Assembly (NCBI GenBank): GCA_030041295.1
Contig: JASHOD010000115.1
Location: 1-64,000, forward strand
Source of the DNA: Nitrososphaerales archaeon
GTDB taxonomy: Archaea; Thermoproteota; Nitrososphaeria; Nitrososphaerales; CADDZS01
DNA: 64,000 nt
Direction: 5' to 3'
Each line of letters begins with the position of its first letter. The stretch's first letter is position 1. Positions 10,305-64,000 of the stretch are shown here, in pieces. The notes below the pieces were generated by a model. That model saw nothing but the letters and a program-made list of their open reading frames with translations, did no database searches and was not told the DNA's origin. A program made the translations under genes and the position numbers.

Positions 10305-11324
10305 ATGCCACAGCGAGCTAACACTACGTTTGGAATTTCGTTGGAACCCTCGTGGGATCAAAGCGAATGTCTGGCACTTGCAAAACAGGCCGAGAAGCTC
10401 GGATTTTCAAACGCATGGGTGCCTGACGGAGGACCCGATTCTCCTTACAGCGATGCCATAGTAACACTATCCGCGATTGCTTCGAACACAAGAAGTATCG
10501 AATTTGGCAGCGCTATCGTGAACTTTTACACTCGAAATCCGGCATGGATCGCATCGAGTTTCCTAGCCCTCTCAAATTTAGGAGGTTCGCCACAGCGGGC
10601 AATCCTCGGCATAGGCCTTGGTTCCCCCTACAACGTTGCAAAATTTGGAATTTTCGAACGCAAGGGTAAGATAGAATATCTCCGTGAGGCGATTGAATCA
10701 ATCCAGGAGCTCTTTAGCAGAAAGGAGGTTTCCGTCCGTACCGACCCATTCGTGATTGAAAGAGTCAGACTCTCAAAGAGCAAAGGGAAGATTCCGATCT
10801 ACGTCGGTTCCTCGTCTCCCAAGGGTCTCGAACTTGCGGGAGAGATTTCGGACGGAGTGATTTTGACTGAACGCATAGCAAGGGAAGTGCCTGAAAGACT
10901 GAAACCAATCGAGGTTGGACTTGCCTACTCCGGTAGGAAGAGGAGGAACTTTGAAATCGTAAATTCCGTTGTAATCTCCGTTTCTGATGATGAGGTAAAG
11001 GCCCAGAACGCAGCCCGTCTTACTTGCGCCTACCTCGCCGCTTGGCTCGACGAATCGGTCGCGCAAAAGTATGGAATAGACGAGGGGAGAAGAAACAAAA
11101 TCGCATCTTTGATCAAGGGTGGGTACGAACGTAGGGCTTCAAGGCTCGTCGATCAGAAGATGCTGGATTTGCTCACCGTATGCGGGACCGCGCGGGATTG
11201 CGTTGAAAAATGCCGAGAGCACCTGGAACATGGTGTAGACCAGATAGCTTTTTGCGAACCCTTCGGGCCGAGCAAGGAAGAAGCTTTGAACCTAATAGCG
11301 AGAAAGATAATCCCAAAGATCTAA
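10305..11324 (+). CDS. LLM-class (luciferase-like) oxidoreductase, probably F420-dependent, Mer-like
   Basis: The 339-residue product has the bacterial-luciferase TIM-barrel pattern: substrate and cofactor loops AWVPDGGPDSPYSDA, RAILGIGLGSP, PIYVGSSSPKGLELAGEISDGVIL and a final GVDQIAFCEPFGP. This resembles archaeal 5,10-methylenetetrahydromethanopterin reductases and other F420-using members rather than FMN monooxygenases. The reaction would be hydride transfer with F420, with the substrate unknown. ATG 10305 is preferred over a GTG 87 nt upstream, because the upstream stretch is unlike the family. It is divergent from paralogue B. Confidence 0.8.
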   Translation: MPQRANTTFGISLEPSWDQSECLALAKQAEKLGFSNAWVPDGGPDSPYSDAIVTLSAIASNTRSIEFGSAIVNFYTRNPAWIASSFLALSNLGGSPQRAILGIGLGSPYNVAKFGIFERKGKIEYLREAIESIQELFSRKEVSVRTDPFVIERVRLSKSKGKIPIYVGSSSPKGLELAGEISDGVILTERIAREVPERLKPIEVGLAYSGRKRRNFEIVNSVVISVSDDEVKAQNAARLTCAYLAAWLDESVAQKYGIDEGRRNKIASLIKGGYERRASRLVDQKMLDLLTVCGTARDCVEKCREHLEHGVDQIAFCEPFGPSKEEALNLIARKIIPKI

Positions 11325-51239: not shown

Positions 51240-52853
51240 CTACTCAGGCGGGATCTCTTTGAAGATGAGATCGAATTTTACTCCTCTGCTTTGATTGATA
51301 TATTTTGCAACAAAGTAGATGACAAACAGTACGACAATTGGCACGAATATTACCTCGTATCCAAAAACAGTACCTGTTGCACCCCCATATATGGCAGGGA
51401 TCGTAACATATTCATAAAATGTTGCCAGAGTAAAGCCTATCGTAACAACTGCCGCGATTATTAAGATCGGGCCTCCAAGAATCGAATTTGCCAAAGTGGA
51501 GCTCTTGAACGTCTGCTTCCTTGCAAATCTGAAATAAAGCAATGCTATTCCTACAATGGTGATCGGGAAGAGCAAGAGTATTGCCACTGCCGCCGAAGAC
51601 ATGTCGAATACAATTGCTACGGGTAGTACGAATGTGAAAATTATGCCAGCTAAAAGACCAATTACAAGCGAAACAATCATAGCTTTAACAGGGCCGTGAA
51701 ATCGCTCACTAACGTCTCCCATAAATGATGGCATGATTCTATCGAAGGAATAAGAAAGCAGGAGCCTTCCGCCAATGAACACTGCATTTGTCTGATACCA
51801 TAACAATTGGATTATAGCCACAATGATTATGAAACTGCCCACATACATGTTAGGACTGATCGCAGCGGCCAGAAAGTCAAGATAGGGGTAAATTGGAAAC
51901 TGCCCGCTTTGATATGTATAGAGGTTAGAGAGATAACCGTACCCAAAAGCATGGTAGCTCAATAACGTTGATCCTGCAAAAATCACCAAAGTTATCGCCA
52001 ATGTCGCGATTATGGCAATTGGCATGTTCCTTTTGACTTGTTTCACTTCTCCTGAAATGTAAACCGCTGAGATTATGTAAGAGAATCCCACCACATAGAC
52101 TGCGTTTAAGGCAAACGCGTGCCCCCAGCCAGATTCCGGTGGAGGAGTACCTGAGCTAGTGACAATATTAGTGAGATTTGAAACGCCTGACAGTTTCGCG
52201 AGATCCGCAACAGCAGTCGATGCCGGCGTCGCCACAAGTACTGCGAACATCACAGCGACCGCGATCAGAATCAAAGGAAGAATGACGTTGTTTAGCCCTT
52301 TATAGATCCGATAACCGAAAAATGGTAAGAGACCGAAAATTATGGTGAGTCCTCCGCCAAGGGCAAATTCTAATTCTGGTTTGCTCTCTAAATTCGTTGC
52401 CAAAGTTACCATACCGTGGTTTCCGGTCGCCAACCCAACATATGCGAAAAGGGAGCTGAAACCAAACGACTCGATTGTTCCAATTGTAATTCCCATAAAG
52501 AGCGGAACCGTTGCAACAAAATAACCCGCATTTCCGACAAATCCTAACGCGGGATTGAGGTACCTGCTTGTGAATACATAGTCTCCAGCCGTTCTTGGCG
52601 TCAAAATGGAGACAGCGGAAAAGGCCAGACCTACAAAGAACATTCCTACAAGTGCGATCAACCCTCCAAGAAGCGGATCTCCTCCAATCAAAGGAGCTTC
52701 AGATGCAATGAAAGTAAGAGAGAAAAAGATTCCAACGAGCGAAAGATTTGTCCAGATTGCATCAGCAATACCGAACGTGCGAACAAGACCCGTTGCCTGC
52801 CTTAGGAAGATAGTTTGCTTATCAGTTGCCAAATTCGTCTCCATCGAAGCCAA
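51240..52853 (-). CDS. APC-superfamily amino-acid permease
   Basis: The 537-residue protein has about 12 transmembrane helices and APC features: DAIWTNLSLVGIFFSLTFIA on the first helix, LTPRTAGDYVFTSRYLNPALG with conserved Gly-Asp-Tyr, and GEVKQVKRNMPIAI on the cytoplasmic loop. It is probably a proton-coupled amino-acid or amine transporter. The N-terminal Gly motif is partly changed. It fits the amino-acid theme of the region but has no fixed partner gene. Confidence 0.88.
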   Translation of the reverse strand: MASMETNLATDKQTIFLRQATGLVRTFGIADAIWTNLSLVGIFFSLTFIASEAPLIGGDPLLGGLIALVGMFFVGLAFSAVSILTPRTAGDYVFTSRYLNPALGFVGNAGYFVATVPLFMGITIGTIESFGFSSLFAYVGLATGNHGMVTLATNLESKPELEFALGGGLTIIFGLLPFFGYRIYKGLNNVILPLILIAVAVMFAVLVATPASTAVADLAKLSGVSNLTNIVTSSGTPPPESGWGHAFALNAVYVVGFSYIISAVYISGEVKQVKRNMPIAIIATLAITLVIFAGSTLLSYHAFGYGYLSNLYTYQSGQFPIYPYLDFLAAAISPNMYVGSFIIIVAIIQLLWYQTNAVFIGGRLLLSYSFDRIMPSFMGDVSERFHGPVKAMIVSLVIGLLAGIIFTFVLPVAIVFDMSSAAVAILLLFPITIVGIALLYFRFARKQTFKSSTLANSILGGPILIIAAVVTIGFTLATFYEYVTIPAIYGGATGTVFGYEVIFVPIVVLFVIYFVAKYINQSRGVKFDLIFKEIPPE

Positions 52854-52972
52854 TATATCGGAATTTAAGCTTTGAGCATGTTTCTACGAATAAATGGCCT
52901 GCTCGGAAATACTTATGCTGATAAATTTGAGAGTATGCTCTGTTTTTGAAATTCTTTCATAACTTCGGCATT

Positions 52973-53776
52973 TTAGGTCGAATAAGCACCAGGCTCTAAC
53001 TCGCGAAGGTACGGTAACAATCTCCTTTGCTCGTCGAGTACTTTCAAGTCTACCTTTGCCGAAACAAAACCTTGGCCCCCACCAGCCTGAGCTAGAATCC
53101 TTGTATCTGGAGAGCTGATCTGGCTCTCGCCAAAGAAGGATAGGTTGCGTTCATAACCTACCCTGTTTGAAAATGCAGTGAACACGCAATTCTCTGAAGA
53201 TCTACTTCTAACATAGATTTCGACCATCTTTCGTGCATTCGAAGGCTGAGCTGACGGATAGAAAACAATCTTCGCCCCCTTCCGCGCAAGAATTCGAGCT
53301 GATTCGGGAAATTCTAAATCATAGCAGATTCCTATTCCGATCGTAGCAAGTTTTGTCCTAAAAACTGGAAAAGATTTACCCGAAGTAAAGTATTTTCTTT
53401 CACTTCCCCAGAGATGCACTTTCCTATAAACCCCGACGAGCTTTCCCTTTGGATCAATTAAGACGGCCGAGTCGTAGATGTTTTGTGCTTCTTCTCCTCT
53501 GCCACGCTCGTCCACTCCGCAAATTAAGTAAAAACCATATTCGGAAGCCATCTTAGAAAGCTCTTCAGTCACCGTTCCGGGAATTTCCTCGGCTAATTCA
53601 ATCCATTTCCTTCCCAGGGCATAGCCTGTCGTTGCAAGTTCTGGAAAACAGACAATGTCTGATTTTCTTATTTGTGATGAGAGCTTGCGAATCAGACTGA
53701 GATTTGATTTCACGTCTCCGAGCTTTGTTTTGATTTGAGCTACAGTTACATTGAAGGGGCTAGAATCGTGCACCAA
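52973..53776 (-). CDS. Carbon-nitrogen hydrolase (nitrilase superfamily)
   Basis: The 267-residue protein has the Glu-Lys-Cys catalytic set: Glu46 in CFPELATTGY, Lys in YRKVHLWGSE and Cys in IGICYDLEFPE. The family hydrolyses amides, carbamoyl amides or nitriles (omega-amidase, N-carbamoylputrescine amidase and so on); the specific substrate is not shown. It is cytosolic. Its promoter region faces a 286-nt gap in which I see no gene. Confidence 0.9.
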   Translation of the reverse strand: MVHDSSPFNVTVAQIKTKLGDVKSNLSLIRKLSSQIRKSDIVCFPELATTGYALGRKWIELAEEIPGTVTEELSKMASEYGFYLICGVDERGRGEEAQNIYDSAVLIDPKGKLVGVYRKVHLWGSERKYFTSGKSFPVFRTKLATIGIGICYDLEFPESARILARKGAKIVFYPSAQPSNARKMVEIYVRSRSSENCVFTAFSNRVGYERNLSFFGESQISSPDTRILAQAGGGQGFVSAKVDLKVLDEQRRLLPYLRELEPGAYST

Positions 53777-56426: not shown

Positions 56427-57704
56427 CTATGAGCCAGTCAAAGTAACTTGGTTTGTCGCGCCGTTGTATGTTCCAATTTGTATCGTAGTTTCAGCAGGTG
56501 TGACCTCCACCACATTGTAAATGGCGAAAGTCTGTGCGTTTGCACCATCTAGCCAAACTCCTGTTCCAGTTGCTCCGAAATAGTGATCTGCTGCTAAGTA
56601 AATAGCGCTCAAGATAGCTGTGCCGTTATTCTGTCCTCCAGTCAAAAGAATAGCGTCCATTGCGATGAATGCGTTATCGTATGCATAGTTAGAATATGGT
56701 TGCGGCGGTGAACCAAACATTGCAGTGAAAGTCGAATTGAAGTAGGTGAGTTGCGGACTGCTGAATGCGGCAGGTGTCGTCATAGTGAAGTTTACACTCG
56801 ACATCCATGGACCATATGTCGACGAAGCATACAATGAAGGTGTATCAATTGCTTCAATACCGAACCATCGGAGACTGCTGAGTGGAGTGTCTGACATCGC
56901 ATGGGTGAATATGTTCTGATCCTCTGTTACCTCGTCGCATGCACAAACAACAACAGTGTTGCTCTTTGTTCCACCAGACGAGAGCATTGTTTGAGCATCA
57001 GATGCTGCAGTAGTGACTATACTTCCATAGTCAGTTTGAGATGGTTGATACTCGACTCCCATTACATTTATTCCGGCAGCTGACATCAAAGCGCTAGAAG
57101 CATTGAAAGTTCCAGATTCCGAAGTGTCATCACGGTATAGGAACACCACGTTCTTTGCTCCCAGTTGCTCTACAGTCTGAGCAAGCGCTGAACCCTCGTA
57201 TTGATCTCCTGGTTGGCCGGGTCTTACGAGATAGTTATCCGTTCCTTTGGGATATCGGAGTGATACTGCTGTTGCAGCAGGCGGAAGAACTACGATATGA
57301 TCTGTATCGGCAGTTTGAAGAACTCCTGCTACTTCGGCAGACGTCAACGGTCCGATCACAACATGGATATTGTCTGTTGAGTACATGGATGCGAGATCAG
57401 AGCCAGCCGTCGCGGCTGATCCCATATCATCTTCCGATATGACTTTGAACTGAAGAGGATTTCCAGCTTGAGTAAGGTTTGCATCCATCTGGTCTACCGC
57501 AAGTGTGACGGCATCGGCAAATGAGATGCCGTAGACAGCATCGCCGCCGCCAGTTAGCGGCTCGATGCTTCCAATGTATATTGTTCTTGTCGTAGTTGTA
57601 GAAGTTGTAGTTGTTGGAACTGTTAATGCGCTGATTCCGTAACCAACGCCGGCACCAACGACTAGACCGATTACTAAGAGAGCTATAGCTGTAGTACTTA
57701 CCAT
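56427..57704 (-). CDS. Branched-chain amino-acid-type ABC transporter substrate-binding protein
   Basis: The 425-residue protein has an N-terminal membrane anchor (IALLVIGLVVGAGVGYGISAL), a Thr linker (TTTTSTTTTRT) and a periplasmic-binding-protein type 1 fold (IYIGSIEPLTGGGDAVYGISF, VVIGPLTSAEVAGVLQTAD, NVVFLYRDD). It captures amino acids or similar ligands outside the cell for the permease and ATPase genes that start divergently 126 nt away. Confidence 0.9.
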   Translation of the reverse strand: MVSTTAIALLVIGLVVGAGVGYGISALTVPTTTTSTTTTRTIYIGSIEPLTGGGDAVYGISFADAVTLAVDQMDANLTQAGNPLQFKVISEDDMGSAATAGSDLASMYSTDNIHVVIGPLTSAEVAGVLQTADTDHIVVLPPAATAVSLRYPKGTDNYLVRPGQPGDQYEGSALAQTVEQLGAKNVVFLYRDDTSESGTFNASSALMSAAGINVMGVEYQPSQTDYGSIVTTAASDAQTMLSSGGTKSNTVVVCACDEVTEDQNIFTHAMSDTPLSSLRWFGIEAIDTPSLYASSTYGPWMSSVNFTMTTPAAFSSPQLTYFNSTFTAMFGSPPQPYSNYAYDNAFIAMDAILLTGGQNNGTAILSAIYLAADHYFGATGTGVWLDGANAQTFAIYNVVEVTPAETTIQIGTYNGATNQVTLTGS

Positions 57705-57725
57705 AGAAACTGCCCACTCGCCTAG

Positions 57726-57736
57726 GATTATTTAAG
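57726..57736 (-). promoter_or_regulatory. Probable TATA box of the substrate-binding protein gene
   Basis: CTTAAATAATC on the minus strand ends 21 nt before ATG 57704, so transcription would start at or just before the start codon (leaderless or nearly so). It is identical to the element at 54977-54987. Confidence 0.55.
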
Positions 57737-57830
57737 AGTTGGCCGACTTTGGATATTTTTGAAATTTAATTCCATCATCCAGAAACAGTAAAATCCATGA
57801 TCAAAGGTCGGTCGAATCGTCCTCAGATAT

Positions 57831-58835
57831 TTGTTACCATATTGGCTGGTCCCTTCTATAATAGAATCTTTATCTGAAGGAAGCATTTTCGTGGTAGCAT
57901 CGATCGGCCTAACCCTTACTCTTGCAGTTGTCAAACTTCCAAATTTCGCGCATGCAGAATTTCTAACTGTGGGAGCGTACGTTGGAGTTGTGGTTTCACG
58001 AATTTATCCGAACAATCTGCTAATAGTGGGCATCTGCGCGTTTCTTGTTTGCGGCGCTGCCGCAATGGTTATCCACCATTCCGTATACAAGCCACTTATG
58101 AATCGGAAGGTTTCAATTTATTTCCTTGTCCTAGCTTCTTTCGCTGTCGCCCAGCTGATTCGTTATCTAGTTTATTTCACGACCGACTCGTTGAATCCAA
58201 ATCTCCTCGCCACAACACAAAGCATCAAGATCTACACAATTGTAACCCTGTTCAACGTGCAGATTTCCAATATCTATGCGATTTCAATTATTCTTGCGAT
58301 TGTGATCTCCGCACTTCTTGCTGTTTTCTTCAACTTTACACACCTTGGGAAATCAATGCGAGCGATTGCAAATAATTTCGACCTGGCGAGAATTTCAGGA
58401 ATAAATGTATCATTCGCTGTCAACATAATGTGGGTGATAGCTGGTGGACTGGGAGGACTTGGCGGGGTTATTTTAGGAACTTATACTTCCGTTACTCCAA
58501 CTCTCGGATTCGATGCTTTGCTTGATATTTTCGCAGTGGTCATCATTGCAGGTCTAACGAGCTTTGTCGGGACAATCATTGGAGGTTATGTTGTGGGATT
58601 TGCAAGTAACACAATAATCGAAGCTCTCTACCACTACGCTGGGGTACCTTTGGGATATGCGCCCCTATTGCCGTTTGCAATGATCGTTGTAATCTTGATA
58701 ATAAAGCCAACTGGTCTTGCACCAAATTCCCAGACAGCTATCGAATTTTTCAGAAAGGCGATTTCTGATAGACAAAGAACAAATTTCAAACGAGAGACGA
58801 AGGCCCAAGATATTTCGGTCAAAGGAGAAAAATAG
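57831..58835 (+). CDS. livH: Branched-chain amino-acid-type ABC permease (LivH)
   Basis: The 334-residue protein has about eight transmembrane helices with LivH features: GSIFVVASIGLTLTLAVVKL, NFAHAEFLTVGAYVGVV (the Asn-x-Ala-His-Gly-like motif) and the EAA-like loop SMRAIANNFDLARISGIN. The start is TTG 57831. It ends 1 nt before livM, so the two permeases are translated together. It is divergent from the substrate-binding protein gene. Confidence 0.92.
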   Translation: MLPYWLVPSIIESLSEGSIFVVASIGLTLTLAVVKLPNFAHAEFLTVGAYVGVVVSRIYPNNLLIVGICAFLVCGAAAMVIHHSVYKPLMNRKVSIYFLVLASFAVAQLIRYLVYFTTDSLNPNLLATTQSIKIYTIVTLFNVQISNIYAISIILAIVISALLAVFFNFTHLGKSMRAIANNFDLARISGINVSFAVNIMWVIAGGLGGLGGVILGTYTSVTPTLGFDALLDIFAVVIIAGLTSFVGTIIGGYVVGFASNTIIEALYHYAGVPLGYAPLLPFAMIVVILIIKPTGLAPNSQTAIEFFRKAISDRQRTNFKRETKAQDISVKGEK

Positions 58836-58836
58836 C

Positions 58837-60000
58837 ATGGTTGACTTGGTTGGTCTGATTGTAAATTTTGCCTCGTTTTACGGCATTTACGCGATACTTG
58901 CGCTCAGTTTAAACTTGGAATACGGATACGCCGGGCAACCGAACTTTGGCCAGGCATTATTCTATGGAGTGGGAGCATTCGCTGGCGGAATTATTGCAGC
59001 AAATCTTCTTCCTTTCTTCGCAGGAGTTCCCATTGGAAATATTTGTGATCCTAATACTGAGCCAACCAGAGTCATGATAGCAAGCACCGATCCGTCAATT
59101 GTGATTCCCGTCTGGATATTGGTTCTTATCATAGGCACGGCCGCCGGAGGATTTTTTGGATTTATCTTATCCTATCCCGCAATTAGAATCAAAGAAGAAT
59201 GGTACCTTTCCATGATTCTTCTGGTAGCTAGTGAAGCATTCGTTGTTGTAGTTGAAAATACGCCGCAATTTGGATGTGGAATAGCCGGCCTCCTCGGAAT
59301 CCAGAATCCATTCACTTGGATATCTAATTCGTATAGAAGCTCTCCATTTGCTTCTTCTGTGTTAGGAATAGACATGCCTGGAATAATCTATGCTATCATA
59401 ATCATGGCCTTTACTGGAATCTGTTATCTGATAGCGAAGAACCTCACAAATTCCCCCTATGGAAGATTGCTCAAATCGATACGGGACGATAAGATTGCGT
59501 CCGAGTCACTTGGTAAGGACGTATCGAAAGTTCGAAGGCAGATCATGATCATAGGATCAATGATGGCAGGATTAGCTGGAGGCTTGTACGTATTTTTTAT
59601 TGGAACAGCACAACCTGGAGATTACCTTCCGGCTCTCACATTTACTATATGGGTCATGATGATTCTTGGTGGTTACGCGAATAATCGTGGCGTTCTTGCA
59701 GGAGCGCTTGCACTAACGTTACTTCAGAGAGGGTTAACAGAAGCTGGGATTCTTGTGCAAAATCAGCTCCCTAGCTTTAATCCAAGCATTTTGATTTACC
59801 TTCAGTACATAGTTGAAGCAGTAATCCTCATCTTGCTCTTGATGTTTAGACCAAAAGGACTTATCCCGGAGAAACGAATCGAGACTAAAGCTTACGAACT
59901 CTTTGATTTTAACAAGAAACAAGGGACCCCTAAGAAGACTCCTGTTGAACAGGCAGAATTCGAAAAACCCACCTTGTCCAAGGAGAATGTATCAGATTAA
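58837..60000 (+). CDS. livM: Branched-chain amino-acid-type ABC permease (LivM)
   Basis: The 387-residue protein matches LivM: YAILALSLNLEYGYAGQPNFGQALFYGVGAF at the N-terminus, IRIKEEWYLSMILLVASEAF, and the cytoplasmic loop GRLLKSIRDDKIASESLGKD. It pairs with LivH to form the channel. ATG 58837 is chosen, because upstream in-frame codons lie inside livH. The C-terminal 40 residues are polar and cytosolic. Confidence 0.93.
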   Translation: MVDLVGLIVNFASFYGIYAILALSLNLEYGYAGQPNFGQALFYGVGAFAGGIIAANLLPFFAGVPIGNICDPNTEPTRVMIASTDPSIVIPVWILVLIIGTAAGGFFGFILSYPAIRIKEEWYLSMILLVASEAFVVVVENTPQFGCGIAGLLGIQNPFTWISNSYRSSPFASSVLGIDMPGIIYAIIIMAFTGICYLIAKNLTNSPYGRLLKSIRDDKIASESLGKDVSKVRRQIMIIGSMMAGLAGGLYVFFIGTAQPGDYLPALTFTIWVMMILGGYANNRGVLAGALALTLLQRGLTEAGILVQNQLPSFNPSILIYLQYIVEAVILILLLMFRPKGLIPEKRIETKAYELFDFNKKQGTPKKTPVEQAEFEKPTLSKENVSD

Positions 60001-60017
60001 AGGGAGATTGATCAGAT

Positions 60018-60785
60018 CTGGCAGACAGCGAGGATATCTTAAGAGTTGAGCGTGTCTCAAAGTCGTTCGGTGCCCTAAGAGCTGTTGATGATGTTAGCTT
60101 TTCAATAAAAAGAGGCAGTATTACAGGACTAATCGGTCCAAATGGCAGCGGGAAGTCAACTCTCTTTGATTTAATTTCTGGTACTCAGGGAAAATTCGGT
60201 GGTTCGGTATTCCTCAATGGAAAGCGAGTTAATGGAATGGCATCGCATAAGATCTTTGAACTAGGATTGGGGAGAACATTCCAAACTCCTAGGCTCTTTT
60301 CAGGAATGACCGTACTCGAGAACTTAATGGTAGGGGGAAAACAGCAAAAAGGAGAGAATCCGCTTTTAGCACTATTACGGGGTAGATGGGAGCCCGAAGA
60401 AATAACCCTAGCGAAAACAGCACAAGATCAGCTTAATGCCCTCGAAATAAGTCACCTCTACGGTGAACTTTCGTCAAACTTGTCGGGAGGACAAATGAAG
60501 CTACTCCAACTAGCGAACGCGCTATCAGGGGAGCCAGAGATGCTTTTACTTGATGAGCCTACAGCTGGAGTTGCGCCTCGACTTGCGCAGGATATTTTTT
60601 CGAGCATCGAAAGTCAGCGAAAGGAGAAAGGGGTCACTTTTTTCATAATTGAGCACCGCTTGCAAGTTCTGTTCAAACATGTCGATCGTGTATTTGTTAT
60701 GCACCAAGGACGAATTATAGCTGATGGAAAACCCTCCGATATCACAAAAAATCAGGAAGTCATCGACGCTTATTTGGGCTCTTGA
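60018..60785 (+). CDS. livG: Branched-chain amino-acid-type ABC ATPase (LivG), CTG start inferred
   Basis: The protein has LivG motifs: Walker A GPNGSGKST, LGRTFQTPRLF (Q-loop), signature LSGGQMKLLQLANAL and Walker B MLLLDEPTAG. Walker A lies upstream of the first ATG (60237), so translation must begin earlier. In frame, after TGA 60009-60011, no ATG, GTG or TTG occurs; the only near-cognate is CTG 60018, preceded by GGGAG. From there the length is 255 residues, exactly the family norm. Confidence 0.85.
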   Translation: MADSEDILRVERVSKSFGALRAVDDVSFSIKRGSITGLIGPNGSGKSTLFDLISGTQGKFGGSVFLNGKRVNGMASHKIFELGLGRTFQTPRLFSGMTVLENLMVGGKQQKGENPLLALLRGRWEPEEITLAKTAQDQLNALEISHLYGELSSNLSGGQMKLLQLANALSGEPEMLLLDEPTAGVAPRLAQDIFSSIESQRKEKGVTFFIIEHRLQVLFKHVDRVFVMHQGRIIADGKPSDITKNQEVIDAYLGS

Positions 60786-60801
60786 GGACTAGAGATTCAT
60801 T

Positions 60802-61524
60802 TTGCCATTACTCGAAGTCGAAGACCTAATTTCAGGCTACGGCAAGATGGCTATAATTCAGGGCGTTTCTCTTAGAATAGAGACTGGCGATTTTGTAGCG
60901 CTTGTAGGCCCGAATGGATCTGGAAAAAGCACTCTAATCAAATCAATTGTAGGTCTTACAACCATTTTCGAAGGGCAGATCAAATTTGATGGTTCGGATG
61001 TTACAAAACAACAACCGGAACACATAGCTTCTATGAGATTAGGTTACGTTCCCCAGATTTCGAATGTTTTCACAGACATGACAGTAAAAGAGAACCTTGA
61101 GATGGGGGGAACTATCATCAGAAGTTCAGCTCATAAGAGAGAAATCTACGAAAGAGTAGTAACCCTATTTCCTTTGCTTGCTTCCAGAGAAAACCAAAGA
61201 GCCGGTTACTTGAGTGGTGGTGAGAGACAAATGCTTGCGGTAGGCAGAGCTCTTATGGCGGAACCAAGATTGCTGATATTAGATGAGCCGACGGCGGCAT
61301 TGGGTCCCAAAATCGCAGATCAGCTTTTTCTCAAGCTATCAGAGATCAGGAGTCAACTGGGGGTGACGATCATGTTGGTTGAGCAGAACGCAAGGAAAGC
61401 CTTGGGCATATCTAATCATGGCATAGTTTTGATCCAAGGAAAGAAAGCTTTCGAAGGAACTCCAGAGCAGATCCTAAATGATACAGAAATTATTCGGCTG
61501 TTCCTCGGTGAATTGACTATTTAG
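60802..61524 (+). CDS. livF: Branched-chain amino-acid-type ABC ATPase (LivF)
   Basis: The 240-residue ATPase has Walker A GPNGSGKST, Q-loop VPQISNVFTDMTVKENLEMG, signature LSGGERQMLAVGRAL and Walker B LLILDEPTAAL. Together with LivG it energises the LivHM permease. The start is TTG 60802, 16 nt after livG. The gene is last of the transporter run, followed by metabolic genes on the same strand. Confidence 0.94.
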   Translation: MPLLEVEDLISGYGKMAIIQGVSLRIETGDFVALVGPNGSGKSTLIKSIVGLTTIFEGQIKFDGSDVTKQQPEHIASMRLGYVPQISNVFTDMTVKENLEMGGTIIRSSAHKREIYERVVTLFPLLASRENQRAGYLSGGERQMLAVGRALMAEPRLLILDEPTAALGPKIADQLFLKLSEIRSQLGVTIMLVEQNARKALGISNHGIVLIQGKKAFEGTPEQILNDTEIIRLFLGELTI

Positions 61525-61605
61525 TTCTACTCGAAAAGAATGTCTGGTAAATTCTTGTTATAATGCCAATCCCTTAAAAGAAAAACATCGGAGTTGCTCT
61601 GTAAA

Positions 61606-62610
61606 ATGAAATTTGGACTACGACTTGCTGACTGGTTTGGGACCACGCAAAATATGGTCGAACTTGCGGTACTCGCGGAGAGAAATGGTTTCGATTTCGT
61701 GTGGGTTTCCCACGATGTCTTTATGCGGAGCTCCTTTGTCACTTTGGCTGCGATCGCATCGAAGACTACGAAGATAAAACTAGGAAACACGATTCTCAAC
61801 CCTTACACGACGAATCCATCCGAGCTAGCGATGTTCCTCGCTTCGATGGACGAGATTTCAGGGAATCGAATGGTATGCGGCATTAGCGCCGGATCTTTGG
61901 AGTACATGGATTGGCTCGGTATTTCGCACGAACTCCCGCTGACTAGGACGAGGGAAAGCGTTGAGTTGATTCGTTCCCTTCTTTCAGGCGAAGTGACAAA
62001 ATACGATGGAAAGGAGTTCGAATGGAGCGAGCAGTGTTACATGCGGTTTGCTCCCCCGAGGAGCAAGATTCCGATCTACATCGGTGGTCAAGGCGACAAA
62101 ATGTTGGAGTATTCCGGTGCCGACGGGGACGGAGCTCTGCCTTTGTTATACCCGCCAGATTTTGCTCCTTATGCAGTCAAGAAAATTTCGGAAGGGGCGA
62201 AAAAAGCCGGGAAGGATCCATCGGAAGTTGACATTGCAGGCTGCGTTTGGGTTTCAATCGCGAAGGATCGAGAGACCGCGAAGACCGATCCTCTCAAAGA
62301 ACTTGTCGCATATTTCGGCCCCCTCCTCGGTGTAAAGGGCCTTGCAGCAGTCGGATTGAGCCATGAGCAGTTTGCACCAGTTCATGCGGAGTTCAAGAAA
62401 TCCGGCATCAAGAGTGCAATAAAATTAGTAAATGACAAGATGCTTAACCTTGCAATTTACGGTTCACCGGAAGATTGTATTATGAGATTGGAGAAATTAG
62501 AGAAGGACGGAGTGAATCAAGTGCTACTAGGGGCACCTCTCGGTCCCAATCCTAGAGAATCGGTCAACATAATCGGCGAGAAAATCATACCTTACTTCCA
62601 TCATAGCTAA
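61606..62610 (+). CDS. LLM-class oxidoreductase, probably F420-dependent, Mer-like
   Basis: The 334-residue protein has the Mer-like luciferase fold: FGLRLADWFGT, FVWVSHDVFMRSSFVTLAAIA, RMVCGISAGSLEYM, IPIYIGGQGDKMLEYSGADG and NQVLLGAPLGPNPRES at the end. It likely reduces or oxidises an imine or folate-type substrate with F420. It sits directly between the amino-acid transporter and the RidA and racemase genes, so a role in amino- or imino-acid catabolism is suggested. ATG 61606 starts the first strand. Confidence 0.85.
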   Translation: MKFGLRLADWFGTTQNMVELAVLAERNGFDFVWVSHDVFMRSSFVTLAAIASKTTKIKLGNTILNPYTTNPSELAMFLASMDEISGNRMVCGISAGSLEYMDWLGISHELPLTRTRESVELIRSLLSGEVTKYDGKEFEWSEQCYMRFAPPRSKIPIYIGGQGDKMLEYSGADGDGALPLLYPPDFAPYAVKKISEGAKKAGKDPSEVDIAGCVWVSIAKDRETAKTDPLKELVAYFGPLLGVKGLAAVGLSHEQFAPVHAEFKKSGIKSAIKLVNDKMLNLAIYGSPEDCIMRLEKLEKDGVNQVLLGAPLGPNPRESVNIIGEKIIPYFHHS

Positions 62611-62643
62611 GAAATGATGATTTGAGCGTCGGCGTGGGCTAAG

Positions 62644-63033
62644 TTGAAGAAGCGAATCGAAAGAGTAAGCAGTGGTGGAAAGTACGAGGAAATCATTGGT
62701 TATTCGAGAGCTGTGAAAGTGGGAAGGCAGGTCTTCGTTTCAGGTACGGCCAGTGTTGATCCGAAGCGGAAGAATGCTGGAAAGAACGAAGCATATGTTC
62801 AAACTACCGAAGCCCTGAAAATAATTAAACGCGCACTAGGCAAACTAGGAGGTTCCCTGGACGATGTTGTGAGGACAAGGGTCTTTGTTCGACAAGGCAC
62901 GAATTGGGAGCTAGTGGCAAAAGCTCATAGGGAAGCTTTTGAGAAAACTAGACCCGTGTCCACGTGGCTAGTTGGAACTTTTCTTGACCCCGGCATCCTT
63001 GTCGAAATCGAAGCTGACGCGATTTTGAGCTGA
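62644..63033 (+). CDS. RidA/YjgF-family protein
   Basis: The 129-residue protein has the RidA fold: IGYSRAVKVGRQVFVSGTAS, TTEALKIIKRALGKLGGSLDDVVRTRVFV, then RPVSTWLVGTFLDPGILVEIEADAI, with the conserved Arg that binds carboxylates and a Glu near the end. RidA deaminases hydrolyse reactive enamines and imines from amino-acid enzymes. It lies 33 nt after the F420-type gene and 74 nt before the racemase. The start is TTG 62644. Confidence 0.9.
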   Translation: MKKRIERVSSGGKYEEIIGYSRAVKVGRQVFVSGTASVDPKRKNAGKNEAYVQTTEALKIIKRALGKLGGSLDDVVRTRVFVRQGTNWELVAKAHREAFEKTRPVSTWLVGTFLDPGILVEIEADAILS

Positions 63034-63107
63034 TTATTCTAAAAATAGATAACTGTTTTCTAACACGAGAGCTGTAGGCACGATAAAGGAGATAGTTCAA
63101 TCACAAT

Positions 63108-64000
63108 TTGACATCAGAAAATCTGCTTCATGTTGTTGATTCGCACACTGGCGGTGAGGGAACTCGCTTGTTTTTGGGCGAAGTTCCCCAGTTGATAGGA
63201 AGAAATATGGTGGAACGTAAGAAATACTTTCAGTCCAATTACGACTATTTTAGGACGACCCTTACTCTAGAGCCAAGGTACTTCCCTGGAATAGCCGCGT
63301 TTCTTGTTCCTCCCTCTGAACCCAAAGCTGACTATGGTGTAATATTCGGAGATTACAGAGGATACGCGGATATGTGCGTACATGGAACAATTGGTATCGT
63401 TACAACCTTATTTGAATTGGGATTACTCAGGAATCCAAAAAATACAATTATATTCGACACTCCTGCCGGACTAGTTCGCGCAAAAGCAAACCTTGTGGAT
63501 GGAAAGATAAGATCGGTAAGTGTCACAAACGTTCCTGCGATGTATCTGGGAAATATCGCACTGGATGAAGATGGTACTTTTGGGGGAGTAAACGCTGAAA
63601 TCGCTTTTGGCGGAAATACTTTTGCCTATGTGAACGCACGCGATACGGGCTTGAAGGTGATTCCTAAGAATCTCTCAAGTCTTCTCAAAATGGGCAACGA
63701 TTTACTTTCAAAACTAAGAAAAATGAAGAGTATCTCTTCAGAACCCAAAACAACAAGGAAAATTCCAACTATACTTGGTATCTCGCTTTACGAAGATCTA
63801 GACACTGGCGCGCAAAAGAGACAAGCAAGAAATATCATGATAGCAGATAATGGTCTATTCGACAGATCACCTTGTGGGACCGGAACTTGTGGCCGAATGG
63901 CGCTGCTTTACGCAAAGGGGAAACTTTCTACCGGAGAACAATTCACGAACCGTAGCATCATAGGCTCGGAGTTTATCGGGAGAATTGTCGGCCTGACAAA
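63108..64000 (+). CDS. Proline racemase/hydroxyproline epimerase-family protein (3' end outside window)
   Basis: The open frame from TTG 63108 runs to the window end (297 codons). It has the family's two catalytic cysteines: Cys90 in YADMCVHGTIG and Cys256 in DRSPCGTGTCGRMA, plus VVDSHTGGEGTRLF at the N-terminus. With both Cys it fits proline racemases and 4-hydroxyproline 2-epimerases rather than Thr-type dehydratases. It may convert an imported proline-type compound, for which RidA and the transporter make sense as partners. Confidence 0.9.
   Translation, partial: MTSENLLHVVDSHTGGEGTRLFLGEVPQLIGRNMVERKKYFQSNYDYFRTTLTLEPRYFPGIAAFLVPPSEPKADYGVIFGDYRGYADMCVHGTIGIVTTLFELGLLRNPKNTIIFDTPAGLVRAKANLVDGKIRSVSVTNVPAMYLGNIALDEDGTFGGVNAEIAFGGNTFAYVNARDTGLKVIPKNLSSLLKMGNDLLSKLRKMKSISSEPKTTRKIPTILGISLYEDLDTGAQKRQARNIMIADNGLFDRSPCGTGTCGRMALLYAKGKLSTGEQFTNRSIIGSEFIGRIVGLT

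Follow-up and report, generated by a model that had tools for sequence, protein, structure and literature searches.

At the downstream end of a 64,000-nucleotide stretch of DNA from a soil archaeon of the Nitrososphaerales, here called the window, genes for an importer are followed by genes for several enzymes, and the locus raises the question of what compound these proteins take up and what they do with it. A first-pass annotation read the set as a transporter-linked unit for the use of imino acids such as proline or hydroxyproline, with an F420-linked imine step. Our analysis retains a catabolic unit with conserved synteny, for which an imino acid is a possible substrate, and does not support the F420-linked step or proline or hydroxyproline as the substrate. 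The reading that we favor, and consider probable, is that the cluster forms a module with which heterotrophic Thaumarchaeota take up an amino acid or imino acid and oxidize it with a flavin enzyme, with a racemase as a stereochemical add-on.

The importer and the enzyme genes that follow it

The window is taken from contig C28 of a 3.68 Mb genome in 159 contigs, and this contig runs past the window edge to position 70959. The original gene calls are intact and real, as judged by open reading frames and Pfam matches, with the corrections given below. The Liv-type (HAAT) importer is complete and consists of a substrate-binding protein (SBP; 56427-57704, PF13458), LivH-like and LivM-like permeases of the BPD_transp_2 family (57831-58835 and 58834-60000, both PF02653) and LivG-like and LivF-like ATPases (60018-60785, PF00005 and PF12399; 60802-61524, PF00005, with the LivF model second-best in NCBIfam); its ligand is predicted by sequence. 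The whole transporter had been placed on one strand, but only the permease and ATPase genes share the plus strand and the SBP gene is divergent, on the minus strand. Of the four genomes whose intergenic region was compared, three keep a TATA-like CTTAAAT about 24 nt before the SBP start, which suggests that SBP may have its own promoter. The solved proteins nearest to SBP are branched-chain and other amino-acid binding proteins of the Leu/Ile/Val type, which supports a binding protein for amino-acid-type ligands, and orthologs of SBP are present in the other clusters. The LivH-like permease is 76-79% and the LivM-like permease 65-69% identical to those of same-genus clusters. The N terminus of LivG is without ATG, GTG or TTG, and an in-frame CTG at 60018, the apparent start, gives a full-length protein. 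CTG is an uncommon start codon; the frame is intact from it, and LivG was rejected as a pseudogene.

Downstream on the plus strand lie genes for an LLM-class oxidoreductase of the Bac_luciferase family (LLM; 61606-62610, PF00296, likely start codon ATG at 61606), a Rid-family protein (62644-63033, PF01042) and a Pro_racemase-family protein with two cysteines (63108-64115, PF05544), which the window edge cuts at 64000. The first-pass annotation had suggested a search beyond 64000 for a reductase or dehydrogenase, and the next gene after the racemase does encode a dehydrogenase-like FAD enzyme, an oxidoreductase of the DAO family (DAO; contig positions 64243-65394, PF01266). It is followed by genes for a SAM methyltransferase, a PNPOx-like protein and an SDR. 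Upstream of the cluster, an amino-acid permease gene adjoins a carbon-nitrogen hydrolase gene (51240-53776, both on the minus strand). The window contains a second, distant LLM gene (10329-11321, 29% identical), and the whole genome has 26 LLM matches. A neighboring aminotransferase, for which the nearest NCBIfam model is GntC at a score below cut-off, was rejected as a cluster component because genomes without the cluster have it too.

Conservation of the linkage in two families

When 350 genomes of the order were searched with DAO, orthologs with identities of 56% or more turned up in five genomes each of two families (f1 and f10), and the linked set recurs in these ten Thaumarchaeota genomes, with some contigs holding a partial set. 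The synteny survey proposed in the first-pass annotation thus found the linkage conserved. Recurrence in ten genomes places it well beyond chance, and the linked sets in both f1 and f10 make linkage across two families firm. The importer and the FAD enzyme are the constant part, and Rid and LLM usually accompany them. In two same-genus genomes, G001 and G004, SBP, LivHMGF, LLM, Rid and DAO are found without the racemase, and identities to the window's proteins are about 86% and 82% for LLM and about 58% and 57% for DAO. G007, from another genus of the same family, has SBP, Liv, Rid and DAO with no LLM between LivF and Rid. In G003, Rid and DAO are intact and LLM is reduced to 55 matching residues; this remnant (L097:2059-2223, residues 284-338) adjoins the two intact genes and suggests gene decay. 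LLM is thus an optional member of the set. The f10 genomes (G105, G739, G114, G738 and G385) keep the components linked, in gene orders and on strands that vary. Two contigs, those of G003 and G385, are short and carry a partial set, and no Rid gene was seen on the second of them. The Gagatemarchaeaceae study (PMC10640624) is the source of G105, the subsoil genome of Thaumarchaeota archaeon SubAcS15-57. A gene for a threonine-synthase-like PLP enzyme lies near the cluster or on the same contig in five genomes (L094, L093, L116, L117 and L118), but the genome of the window yielded no close copy. Searched against plasmids, DAO and LLM gave only distant matches, at no more than about 35% identity and with uninformative names.

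The racemase is an optional, rare add-on. It was found in two of the ten cluster genomes, the window's own (G000) and G105, and not in the other eight; some of these absences may be gaps, since completeness is 55-88% for several of the genomes. In the window's genome it sits between Rid and DAO, a pair that is 20-30 nt apart in G001 and G004. The racemase of G105, 52% identical, lies about 11 kb from DAO and has CoxLMS-like, cyclase and FAH genes and a second LLM and Rid as neighbors. A single-protein scan of genome contigs with the racemase found no relative, and an alignment with the G105 homolog found 13 loci; the racemase proved rare in searches that covered 400 genomes of the class and 398 of the phylum.

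Active-site residues and the nature of the substrate

By its sequence relatives, the FAD enzyme is likely to be the imine-forming enzyme of the cluster and would make the strongest case for a substrate that is a secondary amine or resembles proline. A DAO profile built from 13 relatives matches PDB chain 1y56_B at 281 bits, the next match being dimethylglycine dehydrogenase at 184, and the proteins share 28-33% identity with this chain as well as the motifs GIRxQF and GHGFMxAP. The PDB lists 1y56_B as sarcosine oxidase; we take it to be PH1364, the proline dehydrogenase beta subunit of Pyrococcus horikoshii. DAO resembles sarcosine oxidase too, and its kinship is closer with secondary-amine enzymes than with L-amino acid deaminase. 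Proline dehydrogenase beta normally works with an alpha subunit, and no gene for this subunit lies next to DAO in the loci read.

These relationships bear on a pathway for proline or hydroxyproline in which the racemase or epimerase would invert the alpha carbon, the FAD enzyme would form pyrroline carboxylate and distant genes would finish the degradation. In favor of such a pathway are the similarity of DAO to proline dehydrogenase beta, the presence of both enzyme types in one Thermococcus litoralis cluster (PMC4364671) and the position of the racemases of G000 and G105, which form one clade (support 100/100) next to a clade with Thermococcus proline racemase (ProR; 94/94). The window's genome also has two OCD-family and two DHDPS-family genes elsewhere. 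The catalytic Cys motifs of ProR are MCGH and DRSPCGT. Both catalytic Cys residues and the His are present here, and the description of a two-Cys proline racemase-family enzyme was correct; the second Cys also led us to reject a trans-3-hydroxyproline dehydratase, in which this residue is Thr. The first motif reads MCVH in G000 and MCIH in G105, placing Val or Ile after the first Cys, and both proteins have Ala at site 5 and a gap or an aliphatic residue, not Phe, at site 1. ProR has Phe at site 1 and Phe at site 5 (Trp in the Thermococcus litoralis enzyme, TlProR), and 4-hydroxyproline epimerase (HypE) has His at site 4 and Cys or Tyr at site 5 (PMC4364671); site 4 is not His in the enzymes described here. 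The same pocket pattern is absent from the other homologs fetched. Because of the unusual residues after the first Cys and at sites 5 and 1, the racemase appears to fit no characterized specificity class of the proline racemase superfamily. Since the pocket differs and the racemase was not found in eight of the ten genomes, the proposal of proline or hydroxyproline as substrate was not borne out; nor are DHDPS, ALDH or OCD genes, which known pathways would lead one to expect (PMC4113996), adjacent, the DHDPS and OCD copies lying on other contigs. We consider this pathway unlikely. An imino acid is nevertheless a possible substrate, given that proline dehydrogenase beta is the nearest solved relative of DAO and that the racemase falls together with the proline/hydroxyproline racemase of Thermococcus.

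A slightly less likely explanation is that the importer takes up branched-chain or general amino acids and that the enzymes oxidatively deaminate ordinary L-amino acids, with no dedicated unusual substrate. It would agree with the Leu/Ile/Val-type matches of SBP and with the Liv system and amino-acid use described for Gagatemarchaeaceae (PMC10640624). However, the persistent linkage of LLM and an oxidase like proline dehydrogenase beta, with the racemase added, points to something more specific, as does the kinship of DAO with secondary-amine enzymes.

LLM was originally described as Mer-like, and this is true of its overall sequence: its closest solved relatives are Mer enzymes (methylene-H4MPT reductases), and it is of similar length and family. 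It scores 245 bits against the Mer equivalog, below the cut-off of 276, and the catalytic residues of the C1-carrier site are replaced. At the position of Mer Glu6, each of the 13 LLM sequences compared has Arg, and at that of Asp96 the window's protein has Ser and the LLMs compared have Ser, Ala, Gly or Thr. The comparison rests on these two residues because Gln178, as given for jMer (PMC11094777), reads Asn in the aligned PDB chain; the Glu6Gln variant of jMer retains 0.4% of kcat (PMC11094777). LLM was rejected as a Mer on these residues, which make Mer activity very unlikely. Demethylation of N-methyl amino acids, in which DAO would act like the sarcosine and dimethylglycine enzymes that it resembles and the Mer-like protein would reduce the C1 unit on H4MPT, is highly improbable given these non-acidic replacements and the absence or reduction of LLM in two clusters. 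F420 use by LLM is predicted from family similarity, but the F420-linked imine step finds no support, because Glu6 is replaced by Arg and the FAD oxidase is the natural imine-former.

The LLM subfamily repeatedly adjoins importer genes, whether the Liv set, another Liv-like set (two copies in G019) or SBP_bac_5 (G000 and G007), and this suggests that it may process imported compounds. The relatives beside SBP_bac_5 binding proteins are at L104:9743-12975 and L101:1524-4879. In G019 and G041, from another family (L098:6178-9614 and L099:1-3428), a Liv set and a 59% identical LLM occur without Rid and DAO, so LLM may serve a different compound; there a ferredoxin gene follows LLM and, in G019, a gene for aldehyde ferredoxin oxidoreductase by Pfam comes next.

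The protein first called RidA does belong to the Rid family, but its catalytic Arg (Arg105 type) is Ser in all six members aligned, and a canonical imine deaminase is therefore not supported. About 10% of RidA proteins carry this Ser, and Rid4-7 proteins, which are without the Arg, are believed to have no imine-hydrolysing activity (PMC4433059).

Known systems and the proposed module

The first-pass annotation knew of no such pathway in archaea. The combination of importer, LLM, Rid and DAO was not found in the open-access literature searched, a limited negative, but a cluster from T. litoralis that combines a racemase (TlProR), a proline dehydrogenase of the PH1363/PH1364 type and a Pyr2C reductase has been published (PMC4364671) and is the closest known system. 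Both clusters link a two-Cys racemase from the same archaeal side of the tree with an FAD enzyme like proline dehydrogenase beta. Unlike that cluster, the one described here has a Liv importer, LLM and Rid, has no linked alpha subunit or Pyr2C reductase, and contains in most genomes no racemase, the pocket of which differs from that of TlProR. The bacterial trans-4-hydroxyproline pathway, with 4HypE, a DAAO-family oxidase, a DHDPS-family deaminase and ALDH (PMC4113996), similarly has a racemase-superfamily gene, a DAO-family gene and a transporter as neighbors, whereas our cluster is without DHDPS or ALDH and its racemase is without the His at site 4. Rid genes are known to cluster with FAD amine oxidases (PMC4433059), as the neighboring Rid and DAO genes do here; the change from Arg to Ser and the linked dedicated importer and LLM set the present cluster apart.

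In the uptake and flavin-oxidation module that we favor, the Liv-type importer and its divergently transcribed SBP would import an amino acid or secondary-amine acid. DAO would then oxidize this compound to an imine, from which hydrolysis would yield an oxo acid or semialdehyde. The Rid-family protein could act on or bind a reactive intermediate, and LLM might catalyze an additional reaction of the imported compound that is dispensable and is not methylene-H4MPT reduction. In this genome, the racemase would probably interconvert enantiomers so that both feed a stereoselective oxidase. The gene identities, the conserved linkage, the optional nature of the racemase and LLM and the residue changes were observed directly, and we infer the substrate class, the order of steps and the direction of racemization. 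In favor of the module are the linkage, in ten genomes and in differing gene orders, of importer and FAD oxidase, mostly with Rid and LLM, the closest relatives of SBP and DAO, the known clustering of Rid with FAD amine oxidases, the close spacing of Rid and DAO in G001 and G004, and the single clade and common pocket of the racemases. The missing Arg of Rid, the alpha subunit gene that was not seen in these loci and the Liv-LLM pair without Rid and DAO count against the module. More tentatively, and with considerable doubt, we raise the idea that the racemase clade of G000 and G105 has a new specificity, for neither proline nor 4-hydroxyproline, and that it could act with the proline dehydrogenase beta-like oxidase, the Ser-type Rid and the non-Mer LLM in a hitherto undescribed pathway by which uncultivated Thaumarchaeota degrade amino acids.

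Deep-branching Thaumarchaeota that do not oxidize ammonia, an abundant group in acidic soils, are thought to feed on organic matter, but the compounds they use have been little tested. An importer-oxidase set conserved in two families provides a concrete target that can be assayed, and the altered racemase pocket and the Arg-less Rid offer clean tests of functional change in these superfamilies.
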